Assembly (NCBI GenBank): GCA_029253285.1
Contig: JAQWZU010000130.1
Coordinates: forward strand, 1-64,000
Reading direction: 5' to 3'
Source of the DNA: Akkermansiaceae bacterium
GTDB taxonomy: Bacteria > Verrucomicrobiota > Verrucomicrobiia > Verrucomicrobiales > Akkermansiaceae
Length of the DNA: 64,000 nucleotides
Part shown: positions 2,185 to 30,231 of the stretch, piece after piece
How the letters are laid out: every line of letters starts with the position of its first letter
Numbering within the stretch: position 1 is the stretch's first letter
Notes under the pieces: generated by a model
Database searches by the model: none
What the model saw: the letters and a program-made list of their open reading frames with translations, nothing else
Told to the model about the DNA's origin: nothing
Program-made: the position numbers and the translations under genes

Positions 2185-3441
2185 ATGGATCTAATGCAGA
2201 GATTCGGGGTGAAGCGTTTGATCTACATGTTATTCGGAATACTCCCGCTGAACGGTGATGAGGTCACGATCATGGCGGCTAATATCAGTAGTGGGAATGG
2301 TCAGTCTTATGATCCCGGAGAAGGGGTGAGGATTTTCAAGGGACTGAAGCCGGATATTGTCCTAATTCAGGAGTTTAATATCGGGAGTAATACCGATGCG
2401 CAATTACGGGCCCTGGTGACTGATGCCTTTGGTGCGGAGTTTTCGTATGTCGAAGAAGGAAAGCCGTCGGGAGATATTCAAAATGGAGTGATTAGTAGAT
2501 TTCCGATTCTCCAATCAGGGATTTGGGATGACGACGATATGTCCAATCGCGAATTTGTCTGGGCGCAGATCGATGTTCCGGGCGAAAAGAATCTCTGGGT
2601 AATTAGTGTGCACTTTAAGGCCAGTTCCAGTGGCGCTTCGCGCAGGGTTGGGCAGGCAGAGCAATTGGCGGAATACATCGAGGCGAATGTTCCGGCTGAT
2701 GATTACCTTGTGATTGGAGGTGACTTTAACGCGCAGAATCGCACGGAGTCTTTTTTAAATGAACTCGATCATCTCGTGAAGGTGACTGCGCCCTGGCCGG
2801 TGGATCGGAATGGCGATGGTGATACCAATGCGGGGCGTTCAAGGCCCTACGACTGGGTGATGGTGGAACCTGATTTAAATAGCCTTGAAGTGCCGACAGT
2901 GTTGGGCGGGCGGAGTTATGCCAACGGAATTGTCTTTGATAGCCGGGTCTTCACTCCGCTCTCTGCAGTGGCTCCTGTTTTAGCTGGAGACAGCGGGGCT
3001 TCTCAAATGCAGCACATGGCAGTGATGCGAACCTATGACTTTCCCCCGGAGCTCGATGATTATGAAAGCTGGGTAGTGGAGAGATTTTCGGCACAAGAGT
3101 ATGCCCAAGGCGAATCGATTTGGGGTGCGCTAGCCGATCCTGATGGCGATGCTTCAGTCAATTTGCTCGAGTATGCCTTCGGGACCGATCCGACGGTTGC
3201 GGGGAGTCGGGAAAAGTTTCCGAAAGTGACAATCGTCTCTGGGGAAGATGTTGTGAGTTTCCTGGTTAGAGAGGGGTCTGCGCTTACCTATGAACTCCAG
3301 GTCTCGGATAATCTCAGTGACTTCGTCGAGTTGTCGGGTGAAGTTGTCAGCGATGGGCCGGTGAGCGATGGTTTCAAAATGAGAACGGTGACCTTGCCGC
3401 CTTCGAATAGAAAGTTCTTCAGGCTCAAAGTTGTGCGCTAG
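2185..3441 (+). CDS. Secreted endonuclease/exonuclease/phosphatase family protein with C-terminal DPDGD module
   Basis: The 418-residue protein has an endonuclease/exonuclease/phosphatase fold at about residues 25-290. Metal and catalytic residues are visible: Glu63 in LIQEFN, His143 in ISVHFKASSS, Asp180 and Asn182 in GGDFNAQ, and Asp223 in RPYDWVMV. A hydrophobic stretch near residues 10-22 fits a signal sequence. The C-terminal ~125 residues begin with YESWVVERFS, carry DPDGDASVNLLEYAFGTDP and end in NRKFFRLKVVR. A similar tail occurs on the selenoprotein at 28162. Relatives include DNase I-like nucleases and sphingomyelinases, so the substrate (nucleic acid or phospholipid) cannot be decided. 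The gene ends against the convergent DUF6288-like gene. Confidence 0.8.
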   Translation: MDLMQRFGVKRLIYMLFGILPLNGDEVTIMAANISSGNGQSYDPGEGVRIFKGLKPDIVLIQEFNIGSNTDAQLRALVTDAFGAEFSYVEEGKPSGDIQNGVISRFPILQSGIWDDDDMSNREFVWAQIDVPGEKNLWVISVHFKASSSGASRRVGQAEQLAEYIEANVPADDYLVIGGDFNAQNRTESFLNELDHLVKVTAPWPVDRNGDGDTNAGRSRPYDWVMVEPDLNSLEVPTVLGGRSYANGIVFDSRVFTPLSAVAPVLAGDSGASQMQHMAVMRTYDFPPELDDYESWVVERFSAQEYAQGESIWGALADPDGDASVNLLEYAFGTDPTVAGSREKFPKVTIVSGEDVVSFLVREGSALTYELQVSDNLSDFVELSGEVVSDGPVSDGFKMRTVTLPPSNRKFFRLKVVR

Positions 3442-26413: not shown

Positions 26414-28117
26414 TCAGTCTTTTTTGGCTTCCCGGGGTTTTAGATCACCGGAGGTAATCATTAGCCTGTTGCGGAAGGCGGTGACTTCGCCCTGGAAGAT
26501 TCTGAAGGCCACAATGTCTGGGCGTTTCTTGTTCAAAAAACTTTTGTTCATGTCGCGTGCGAGGCCTTTGAGTCTTTTGATGAGTGCGAGGGCCTCGTCA
26601 TGGAGGGGCTTCTCTTTGTCTCCGATTCGTCGTTCCAGGGGGTCGAAGCGTTCGCGTATCCGGTCATGTAGTTTTCGAAAGTCGGTGGCTTTGGTTTTTC
26701 CGTATTGAAAGCGAAAGTTTGAGAGCGGTTCGAGGCAGCGGTTAAGTTCCCGGGCGAGCATCTTTTCGGAGAAGTGGGGAGGGCGGTTGTTTCCTTGCGC
26801 GGCAAGAAAGGAAGCTGAAACGTGGAGATTTGAATGTCCCACCACGGTGGCGAGTCGTTCCTTGACCGATTTGTGGCTCACGAATGTTTGTAATGAGGTG
26901 GACTCAAGGGCTTTCTCCCAAATTTCCTGATAGCTCTCCATGGCGGCAGCGAGTTTTGGATCGATCTGGCCATCCTCGTAAAAGAGGGAACGGGTCTCGT
27001 CGAAATGGCTTGCGCCGATGACTTCGTAATTTACGAAAAAGTCAGCTTTTTCGAGAACGAGAAGTGATCTCAGGTCGTCGGCAGCTCCCGGTGGCACAAT
27101 GAGGCGGCTTCCCCTTGGTGGCACAGTCTCGGCGAGTTCGAGAAAGATCGACCACGCCTTGTGGGGGCGGCTGAGAGAGCCATTATCTTCCAGCTTGGCG
27201 AAAAGATAGGTGTTTTTTCTGAGTGGTCGACCGGTGAGGGCTGCGTCAACTAGGATCGCGACTGGAGCGGCAAGATTGCTTCCGTTATCAGCGGCATATT
27301 GAAGTTTACCGGTATCAATGTTGAGGCTTTTATCTTGGGGGAGAATTTTTTCGGCGCTTTGAAAATAGCGCTCTGCGCTGCTGACAGTGGATCTAGCATC
27401 GTAATTGGGTCTGGGGCGGAAAAGGATTCTTCGATTGCCATCCCCATCGCCTCTCTCATCGGTGATGATGAGGCTCACCTTCTGTATGATGCCGTTTTTT
27501 CCGATAGGATAAGTGAAGAAGGGCGCAGTCGTCAGGACCGCGTCGGTTTTGAATTGAAGCTCAGGTCCGAGAGGCTTCGTGCTCTCAACCTTATTCTCGA
27601 ATTTTTCGAGCGGAGCGATCAAGCCTTTCCAACGTGCCTCCTGATCATCAACATCATGACTGGAGACCAGTGGGTGGTCTTTTTGTCGTGCGGAGATGAT
27701 ATCGATGAGGAGTTGACCCAGCAAATAGCCCTCCTCACCAGGTGGGAGTTTAACGAGCCATTCGGCGGTTCGCTGAATGGCTCCCTGTGCTTCGCCAACC
27801 TCTCTCCTATTCGCACTCGGACGGCTTTCGTTGTTGCTCAGGCTTTGGATGATCGCACGTGCCTGTGGTTGGGCGGGCGACAAGCGCTGACTGAGAGCCA
27901 ATGCCCGGGCACGGGTGTGGAGATCTTTGCCGGATCTGGAGAATGGGCCATCTGCGATGAGGGCCAGTTGGTCGGCGAGATTGTTGATCCCATTGACATC
28001 GATGGGAATGCGATCCCGTCGGATGAGGGGGTAGGAGTCGTCAGGCACGATGAATTTTGCCGCGCCGAAGGCATTGCCCAAGAAAGCGCAGACGAGAAAA
28101 CCGATGAAAAGACGCAT
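26414..28117 (-). CDS. Secreted protein with a divergent Lon (S16)-like protease domain
   Basis: A 567-residue exported protein (MRLFIGFLVCAFLGNAFGA). Residues ~185-375 resemble the Lon proteolytic domain. Ser280 lies in AADNGSNLAAPVAIL (compare DGPSAG in Lon) and is followed by DAALTGRPLRKNTYLFAKLE (compare SALTGRPVR). Lys320 in LSRPHKAWSIFLELAE occupies the place of the catalytic lysine, 40 residues after the Ser (43 in E. coli Lon). Then SRLIVPPGAADDLRSL matches the usual IPxxNxxDL. No AAA+ ATPase is present; the C-terminal ~190 residues are helical and basic. It follows the selenoprotein by 44 bp on the same strand and is probably co-transcribed. The S16 call is my inference from residue pattern and spacing; activity is unproven. 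Confidence 0.6.
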   Translation of the reverse strand: MRLFIGFLVCAFLGNAFGAAKFIVPDDSYPLIRRDRIPIDVNGINNLADQLALIADGPFSRSGKDLHTRARALALSQRLSPAQPQARAIIQSLSNNESRPSANRREVGEAQGAIQRTAEWLVKLPPGEEGYLLGQLLIDIISARQKDHPLVSSHDVDDQEARWKGLIAPLEKFENKVESTKPLGPELQFKTDAVLTTAPFFTYPIGKNGIIQKVSLIITDERGDGDGNRRILFRPRPNYDARSTVSSAERYFQSAEKILPQDKSLNIDTGKLQYAADNGSNLAAPVAILVDAALTGRPLRKNTYLFAKLEDNGSLSRPHKAWSIFLELAETVPPRGSRLIVPPGAADDLRSLLVLEKADFFVNYEVIGASHFDETRSLFYEDGQIDPKLAAAMESYQEIWEKALESTSLQTFVSHKSVKERLATVVGHSNLHVSASFLAAQGNNRPPHFSEKMLARELNRCLEPLSNFRFQYGKTKATDFRKLHDRIRERFDPLERRIGDKEKPLHDEALALIKRLKGLARDMNKSFLNKKRPDIVAFRIFQGEVTAFRNRLMITSGDLKPREAKKD

Positions 28118-28161: not shown

Positions 28162-29127
28162 CTATGGATGTGTCAGCAAAATCCTGAAAAATGGTCCGGA
28201 GGTGGGAGGTAGGTTGATCGAGACTTCCTGCAGATCCTCAGCAATAGCAGAGGTCGAAATGTCCTCTTCGTCCGGATTTAGGGTGATGAAGTTGTCCAGG
28301 GAGCCTCCCTGGATGGCAAAAGGGATCTCGACCCGGTCGGTGGCAGCCTGAAATTTGAAAACGACGCCGGATGGCGTTTTTACAAGCCGGAGGATGGGGC
28401 GGGATCGCTCATCGATAGGATTGGTGCCGGCGAAAAATTCTTCGATATTGGTAGCTCCATCCAGGTCGGGATCACCGTTTTGGGTCTCCAGACCAAGTGG
28501 AAAGGTGTAGCCGTCGGCCCATTTTTCGAAGGTCGCCAATGGAGGGGGCTGGGTTACTGAGTTCACCGTTTCGATCATGGTATTGGAGTTTGGGAATTGT
28601 TTGTTGTAGAGAATTTCCCAGGGTTCGTGGCTGGCCGAGTTTTGAGAGCCGTTAATGATGACAACACGTCGGCGGTCTCCGACCGGCCACGAGGTGATGG
28701 CTTGGCCTCTGAAAAATTCGAAGCCCTCACGGGGATCCATACGCGTGTTCGTGGAGTCCAAACCACCCTTACTATGGTGATTTAGATTGGCGATGCTCAT
28801 CGTGGTCGAGTCATTCGAGCCTCCACCAACTTCAGTCGAGAGGAGAAGGGAGACGACCTCGATTCCGTTGCTACTGGCTCCTCCATTGTCTACGAAGTGC
28901 TTGCTGACGTCCCTGCCAACCTGGCGGGCTACTGATGCGCAAGTTGGTCACCAGGGTGTATAGTAGGTGATGATAACAATTTTGCCTTCGTAGTTTTCGA
29001 GTGAGTCGGGCGACAATGCGGCCCCGCTGAAGGTCTCGAAGAGAACATTTTGGCTGGGAGTGTCGACGGGAGGTATTGCGGAAAGCGTTGAGATCAATCC
29101 GAGTCCGAAGATGAGTGGTTTTAGCAT
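28162..29127 (-). CDS. Thioredoxin-like selenoprotein (UxxC), TGA at codon 60 read as selenocysteine
   Basis: One 321-codon frame runs from ATG 29127 to the stop at 28162, broken only by TGA at 28948-28950 (codon 60). Residues 1-17 are a signal peptide (MLKPLIFGLGLISTLSA). The TGA falls inside IITYYTPW-U-PTCASVARQ, replacing the first Cys of a thioredoxin WCxxC motif; the resolving Cys is residue 63. No other stop occurs. A hairpin starts right after the TGA (28916-28947). Residues ~155-165 (RRRVVIINGS) fit the later thioredoxin strand, and the C-terminal ~125 residues are a DPDLDGATNIEEFFAGTNP module ending FFRILLTHP. The gene is 15 bp after the DUF3570 gene. Routine prediction would report only the part from Met110 (28800). 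The alternative is a nonsense mutation, but its exact active-site position argues against that. Confidence 0.85.
28916..28947 (-). promoter_or_regulatory. Putative bacterial SECIS hairpin directly after the in-frame TGA
   Basis: On the minus strand the base after the TGA opens a stem: CCAACTTGCG (28947-28938) pairs with CGCCAGGTTGG (28926-28916). This gives ten pairs, one of them G-T, with a single bulged C. The 11-nt loop CATCAGTAGCC has an AGT/GU element whose G lies 16 nt from the TGA. Position, size and loop G/U agree with known bacterial SECIS elements read by SelB. The pairing is seen directly; SelB recognition is inferred. Confidence 0.75.
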
Positions 29128-29142: not shown

Positions 29143-30231
29143 TTAAAACTCAAAGGTGTAAGCGGTGCGAACCGTGATCCAATCCCGGTCATCGTATAGA
29201 TTGGTGAAAAATTCGTTATTGGGATCGGTGTCTTTGTAGTTGTTGATGAAGCTCGATATCCCCAATTGGAAGGCGTGGTCACCATGCTCGATGAGTGCGG
29301 AGATTCCGATTTCTGCAGTGTTAATTTCAGGAGCTGCTGAATTGAAGCCCGAGGTCTCGATTTCACCTGAATCGGTGTAGAGGCGCCCGTTGAGCTTGAG
29401 AGACAAGTGGTCGTTGACTTCGTATGTCAGAGAGAGACCGCCGTAGAGGGAATCAAAGTCTGATTCTTCACGTGACCCACCGAGTTGTGCCCCCAGGGTG
29501 ATTTCGGTGGTGAGTGCATAGTTCCAGGAGGATTGGAGGTTTAGGCGTGGTTCCCTGTCAGTAATGTCGCTGTAGGAAAACGACGTTTCTGTTTTGAGAC
29601 TTGGATTGATGGCCTGTTCCCAACGAATTGAGACAATGCGACTTTTTAGAAGGTCATTTGCCGGTGACCCAAAAGTCCATCCCGGGGCAATGGTATCCTC
29701 GGAATAAGAGAGATCGATGCTCAGGCTGGTTCCGGTTTGAGGATCCCAGCCCCAGCCATTGGTAATGCTGAAGCCCTCGGGGTCGGGGGCGAAATACCCC
29801 GACCCGGGGAAATTGAAGGTCTGGCGGTAGTATTCCGCGATCCAAATCGACCGGTAGTCGCTGAATCCGTCGTAGGAGGTGACCGAAATCGAAGTTTCTA
29901 TATCGTTATGCAAGGTGTAGCCGATGGAGAGGCTGCCTTGGTGATTTGACTCGTCGAGGCGGTTGTCTGAACCGCCCAGCGGGGCGAAGGGTTCGTATTC
30001 CAATCCGTATTCAGTCTGGAAATAGGAAAGAGCGAAGGTCCACTTTTCACGCTTTTGTTGGTAGGAAAATGATCCTCGTTGGACATCGAGATTCGAGGAA
30101 AAGAGCCCTTCGTATTCGACGTCGATGTTTTGCAGGCCGGTGAGTAAATGTTCTCGAAAACTAGTATCATCGTCCTCGGCCAGGCTGGAAGAGATTGGGA
30201 GAAGTGAGAGAAGGATGGTGTGCGATTTCAT
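29143..30231 (-). CDS. DUF3570 outer-membrane beta-barrel protein
   Basis: A 362-residue exported protein (MKSHTILLSLLPISSSLAED). After a short N-terminal region containing FREHLLTGLQNIDVEYEGLFSS, the rest alternates polar and aromatic residues in beta strands (KWTFALSYFQTEYGLEYEPF, EASIS-like TSISVTSYDGFSDYRSIWIAEYY, SFSYSDITDREPRLNLQSSW). It ends in ITVRTAYTFEF, whose terminal Phe is the classical outer-membrane barrel signal. The pattern fits DUF3570. From memory, DUF3570 genes cluster with DUF4266 lipoproteins, thioredoxin-like proteins and often an ApbE FMN transferase. Here DUF4266 is 16 bp upstream and the selenoprotein 15 bp downstream; no ApbE gene is seen. Confidence 0.82.
   Translation of the reverse strand: MKSHTILLSLLPISSSLAEDDDTSFREHLLTGLQNIDVEYEGLFSSNLDVQRGSFSYQQKREKWTFALSYFQTEYGLEYEPFAPLGGSDNRLDESNHQGSLSIGYTLHNDIETSISVTSYDGFSDYRSIWIAEYYRQTFNFPGSGYFAPDPEGFSITNGWGWDPQTGTSLSIDLSYSEDTIAPGWTFGSPANDLLKSRIVSIRWEQAINPSLKTETSFSYSDITDREPRLNLQSSWNYALTTEITLGAQLGGSREESDFDSLYGGLSLTYEVNDHLSLKLNGRLYTDSGEIETSGFNSAAPEINTAEIGISALIEHGDHAFQLGISSFINNYKDTDPNNEFFTNLYDDRDWITVRTAYTFEF

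Follow-up and report, generated by a model that had tools for sequence, protein, structure and literature searches.

Periplasmic thiol-disulphide oxidoreductases of the TlpA, ResA and DsbE type are exported proteins with a catalytic motif on helix 1 of a thioredoxin (Trx) fold. Selenocysteine (Sec)-containing representatives of this fold are already well known: the Prx-like thiol:disulphide oxidoreductase selenoproteins (PF00578) have UxxC or UxxU motifs (PMC13188914, PMC9312934), and a 2026 catalogue includes UxxC Trx-like selenoproteins assigned to the Redoxin family (PF08534), a thiol-disulphide isomerase-like group (cd02966) and a DsbG-like group (PMC13188914). Thioredoxin-like proteins are also encoded in flavinylation clusters, along with DUF3570, DUF4266 and ApbE proteins (PMC8238504).

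Within a 64,000 nt stretch of an Akkermansiaceae bacterium genome (contig JAQWZU010000130.1 of assembly GCA_029253285.1; hereafter the window) lies a gene very likely to encode a selenoprotein related to these systems, yet distinct from each of them. Its product shares the predicted fold, helix 1 motif and export of TlpA, ResA and DsbE, but has an inferred Sec at the attacking position and approximately 130 additional C-terminal residues. A UxxC or UxxU motif in a thioredoxin fold is common to this protein's family and the Prx-like PF00578 selenoproteins, from which it differs in its C-terminal module, gene neighbour and PF00578 score (15.5 bits, under the cut-off of 26). The redox-active UxxC in a thioredoxin fold is likewise shared with the catalogued Trx-like selenoproteins, but no matching model passes for the window protein: it falls under the cut-offs of all Pfam and NCBIfam models, including the curated Trx, Redoxin and AhpC-TSA thresholds, the best Pfam match having an E value of 0.0086. 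As in the flavinylation clusters, a barrel-like secreted protein is found beside a thioredoxin-like protein; however, the window barrel is not DUF3570. An earlier note, made from sequence alone, had considered a secreted UxxC protein in this setting to be undescribed. UxxC Trx-fold selenoproteins as such are well known, but the claim held within the open-access literature and the Pfam and NCBIfam databases searched: a family with this C-terminal module and barrel neighbour is absent from NCBIfam and from the main texts of three catalogues (PMC13188914, PMC9312934, PMC2398784), and no description of such selenoproteins being coupled with an outer-membrane barrel was found in the open-access literature searched.

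Table 1. Coordinates of the inferred selenoprotein gene, its parts and its neighbours within the window.
Feature	Position	Strand	Basis
Inferred selenoprotein gene, 321 codons plus stop, TGA codon 60 read through	28162..29127	-	Frame and full-length homology
TGA, inferred Sec codon 60, first position of WUPTC	28948..28950	-	Only TGA, TGC or TGT in relatives
TGC, Cys63, putative resolving residue; most relatives have TGA here (second Sec)	28939..28941	-	Codons of relatives
Putative signal peptide, approximate, residues 1-19	29071..29127	-	By eye; low-confidence model segment
bSECIS hairpin CCCGCCA-GGU-UGGC(A)GGG, apical loop 26 nt past TGA	28911..28928	-	Folding, covariation, published model
Thioredoxin-fold domain, ~residues 20-188	28564..29070	-	Structure model, Foldseek
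C-terminal module, ~residues 199-321: calcium-loop/TSP3-like DPDLDGATNIEEF motif and beta domain	28165..28533	-	Model, homology
Partner gene for a predicted outer-membrane beta-barrel of 14 strands, no Cys; lies upstream, ending 15 nt from the selenoprotein ATG	29143..30231	-	Structure model, homology
Downstream 567 aa protein with N-terminal hydrophobic segment, no known family; link to the module uncertain	26414..28117	-	

The frame is interrupted only by the TGA at codon 60, which sits within YYTPW-U-PTC and takes the place of the first Cys in a WCxxC motif. This arrangement, along with the resolving Cys63, had been set out in the earlier note and held in every detail, as did the start of the downstream open reading frame at Met110 (28800); the 'clean' signal peptide proposed there was upheld by eye only, the N-terminus MLKPLIFGLGLISTLSA resembling such a sequence. 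Gene finders using the standard code would begin the remainder of the gene at Met110. The 212 aa ATG-led frame that results supports an alternative reading, in which the locus makes two products: translation would stop at the TGA to release a short secreted peptide, and a separate protein would start at Met110. However, such a protein would lack a large part of the thioredoxin fold, helix 1 among it, and codons 61 to 109, the stretch from the TGA to Met110, show conservation at the protein level throughout the family, with dN/dS around 0.10 for codons 1 to 109. This alternative is all but excluded. Purifying selection is also evident 3' of the TGA (dN/dS of 0.24-0.36).

Relatives were sought with the N-terminal domain alone, because the common C-terminal module swamped a full-length profile search, which matched 285 of the 388 genomes of the phylum examined, nearly all through that module. 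TGA was found at codon 60 in 27 genes from 20 genomes, the window genome included; the named relatives include metagenome-assembled genomes of Verrucomicrobiaceae and Akkermansiaceae. Across these relatives, codons 60 and 63 are exclusively TGA, TGC or TGT, and neither TAA nor TAG was found at the catalytic codons of any relative examined. Two thirds of the Sec genes (18/27) also have TGA at codon 63, hence encoding UxxU. The alignment over codon 60 that the earlier note had suggested as a check thus gives a mixture of TGA and Cys codons and nothing else, within conserved flanks, supporting Sec; unseen in that note were the predominance of UxxU among relatives, the Cys codon already present in the two nearest orthologues and the outer-membrane barrel gene that travels alongside.

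The source genome, an assembly of 224 contigs totalling 4.3 Mb with 96.7% completeness, encodes SelA (E value 1.6e-123), a SelB scoring over its cut-off, a tRNA-Sec with a UCA anticodon (54 bits against a cut-off of 47) and SelD. Absence of all the sel genes, which the earlier note considered would refute its proposal, is therefore not observed. The selD gene (L127, also L049; G000:C135:17623-18552) contains its own in-frame TGA, at the CGGU motif of SSCGGUASKLG, and so counts as a further selenoprotein gene. SelA is present in 19 of the 20 TGA-bearing genomes, the lone exception being 72% complete, and no SelA match was found in four genomes of other, more distant genera that have CxxC members.

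Immediately past codon 63, family members have a hairpin with, in most cases, an AG[GU]U-type apical loop. In the window, RNA taken from codon 64 folds into a stem of seven pairs, interrupted by a single bulged A and capped by a GGU loop, with a pair probability of 0.99 and an energy of -9.4 kcal/mol; the hairpin begins 19 nt past the UGA. The published bSECIS model specifies a 3-9 nt loop with G in its first two positions, a 4-16 bp stem, a spacing of 16-37 nt and a minimum free energy (MFE) of at most -7.5 kcal/mol (PMC13188914); the window hairpin meets it on loop, stem, spacing and energy. By itself this is weak evidence: the chance of such a hairpin under synonymous shuffling is about 4%, the MFE z-score of the window UGA plus 48 nt is -0.16, with values mostly near zero across the family, and in the full 48 nt fold the SECIS competes with a larger stem.

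The family-wide signal is far beyond chance. The hairpin is present in 26 of the 27 Sec genes and missing from all six Cys genes. Across 24 Sec genes, 91.7% of cells are paired, the covariation score is 0.814 against 0.218 when shuffled and 0.054-0.163 when slid, and 41 cells are changed on both sides against 14 in shuffles. At least three apical pairs form in 25 of 26 Sec genes; under random choice among synonymous codons, the mean number of such genes was 5.2 and the maximum 12 in 2000 trials. This set of 26 required Gln at codon 69, and the remaining gene, L103, was examined separately: it retains the hairpin despite a change of Gln69 to Glu (GAG), compensated by the closing pair changing from C-G to G-C. 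Codon 69 (28921-28923 in the window; CAG, or GAG in L103) provides the AG of the loop, and Cys members drift to CAA or Ala codons. Gln69 is near-invariant in Sec members, with Ala in three Cys members; this pattern, together with the role of codon 69 in the loop, suggests that the residue probably reflects a constraint imposed by the SECIS RNA, at least in part. Hence the adjacent hairpin that the earlier note had observed, and proposed testing with a bSECIS predictor, is real, fits the model and covaries in the family.

Two orthologues, L020 and L021, are the nearest to the window gene (93% and 90% identical), and both have TGC at codon 60 despite all three genomes encoding SelA. Both also have CGG at codon 68, synonymous with the CGC of the window, and the pair probability of the hairpin is 0.07 and 0.01 in these genes, compared with 0.99 in the window; in the nearest Cys orthologue, the stem is broken because of this synonymous substitution. 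In a tree constructed with the catalytic residues masked, six changes among UxxU, UxxC and CxxC are needed, and the window gene is the sister of L020, with L021 outside (support 97/82). Both nearest orthologues encode Cys and one of them is the sister of the window gene, which implies two or more changes at codon 60 among just three closely related species. Two identical losses of Sec, a loss followed by a regain, or exchange of a segment between species could each account for this history.

This grouping, along with the TGC of the two nearest orthologues, lends some support to a rival view: the gene would be an ordinary CxxC member of the thioredoxin-like kind, its TGA owed to nonsense mutation (a pseudogene) or to an error of assembly. 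Furthermore, the window comes from a contig of an environmental-type genome, and the base rests on the assembly alone. Against this, TGA occurs at this position in 20 genomes, with TAA and TAG never at the catalytic codons, the frame following it is intact and constrained, the Sec machinery is complete, and the window retains the hairpin that both Cys orthologues have lost through a synonymous difference. A pseudogene or error is therefore very unlikely as an explanation. A base error affecting the window alone cannot be excluded, though the intact hairpin speaks against it. The argument in the earlier note that a random nonsense mutation was unlikely is supported, and the Sec reading is upheld by the TGA across the family, the hairpin and the machinery. 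Sec insertion at codon 60 is almost certain, on comparative evidence without protein, mass-spectrometry or selenium data; comparison does show that UGA is kept under a SECIS/SelB system and exchanged with Cys.

The structure model of the window protein (pLDDT 85) has an N-terminal thioredoxin fold of the TlpA/ResA type, with the catalytic motif at the start of helix 1; the best Foldseek matches are a Bacteroides PDI, ResA and DsbE. The C-terminal module is inferred to serve, probably, in surface or envelope placement. The same type of module recurs in another protein of the window (3037-3432, + strand), and widely in the phylum, and may be a sorting or attachment domain. An expanded set of Sec domains was observed in another family of the order (L119-L124 and L104, from genomes G536, G501 and G073), with five copies found in G536; their C-terminal fusion partners vary, long repeat proteins being among them, and no barrel gene adjoins these copies.

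Directly upstream of the window gene is that encoding the predicted barrel, the model of which (pLDDT 85) has 14 strands by count and a signal peptide identified by eye only; its likeness to FadL- and OmpG-type barrels is one of general fold. In 23 of 32 loci, spread over several genera, the gene immediately preceding the thioredoxin-like one is a barrel homologue; none was detected in the other nine, some of which are at contig ends. A homologue of the downstream 567 aa protein was found in 8 of the 17 related loci checked. In L054 (G370), the barrel adjoining a CxxC relative seems, by eye, to have an extra N-terminal thioredoxin-like segment, which raises the possibility of a fusion of the two functions.

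Assignment of the barrel to DUF3570 (PF12094), and of the locus to the flavinylation clusters, was considered and rejected: the barrel scores under the cut-off with a profile probability of 11%, and the [ST]GA[ST] motif is missing from the barrels other than a single copy in one of 15 members. No ApbE gene was found among the neighbours examined at the window locus. A DUF3570 gene does lie elsewhere in the source genome (L137, G000:C224:18438-20532), directly followed by an ApbE-like gene, with no thioredoxin-like or DUF4266 gene seen alongside.

It could be that the barrel is a mere neighbour and that the selenoprotein works without it, as a periplasmic enzyme of general thiol-disulphide or peroxide chemistry. 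The barrels contain no cysteines and therefore cannot be thiol partners, and the expanded copies in the other family lack an adjoining barrel, both of which favour such an arrangement; however, the barrel is directly upstream in most loci, across several genera, while the outer genes vary. On balance we lean, by a small margin, against the mere-neighbour reading. A role for the barrel in anchoring or substrate passage is inferred to be more probable than one as a thiol partner.

The best explanation overall is, very likely, that the locus encodes an exported Sec60/Cys63 thioredoxin-like oxidoreductase beside a barrel, with its substrate and redox direction a matter of inference only. In this scheme, supported by comparison rather than experiment, UGA at codon 60 would be decoded as Sec by the SelA, SelB, SelC and SelD of the genome, as directed by the bSECIS. 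Judging from the fold and motif, Sec60 would attack and Cys63 (or Sec63) resolve; where helix 1 begins, Sec60 and Cys63 would form a reversible selenenyl-sulphide. The protein is inferred to act outside the cytoplasm, beside the co-encoded barrel, as a selenol-based oxidoreductase; its targets would be small-molecule or protein thiols, disulphides or peroxides, with substrate and direction unknown. In UxxU relatives, the same hairpin would direct decoding of a second UGA at codon 63: the loop is 25 nt past the first UGA and 16 nt past the second, both within the published limits, hence a single hairpin should be able to serve both. A diselenide, as UxxU members would form, is expected on general chemical grounds to be hard to reduce; it is possible, though speculative, that this hints at a fast reaction with peroxides or radicals over ordinary disulphide reduction. 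A bolder reading, which remains no more than possible, is of a two-gene outer-membrane redox module carrying out a Sec-dependent reaction, with switching between UxxU, UxxC and CxxC, perhaps a Cys-to-Sec reversal in the window lineage, and a SECIS influencing residue 69.

These genes appear likely to represent an undescribed family of Trx-fold selenoproteins, widespread in one Verrucomicrobiota lineage and usually adjoining a barrel gene. No selenoproteome of the window's lineage was found described in the open-access literature, and the family adds at least 27 Sec genes, all of which a standard-code gene finder would truncate. Successive Sec decoding also becomes open to direct testing, as one hairpin is placed for two UGAs separated by nine bases. 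Furthermore, the close Sec/Cys pairs, with SelA present in each genome, constitute a natural system for studying the benefit of Sec over Cys, and for asking how rapidly a SECIS decays once it is no longer needed.
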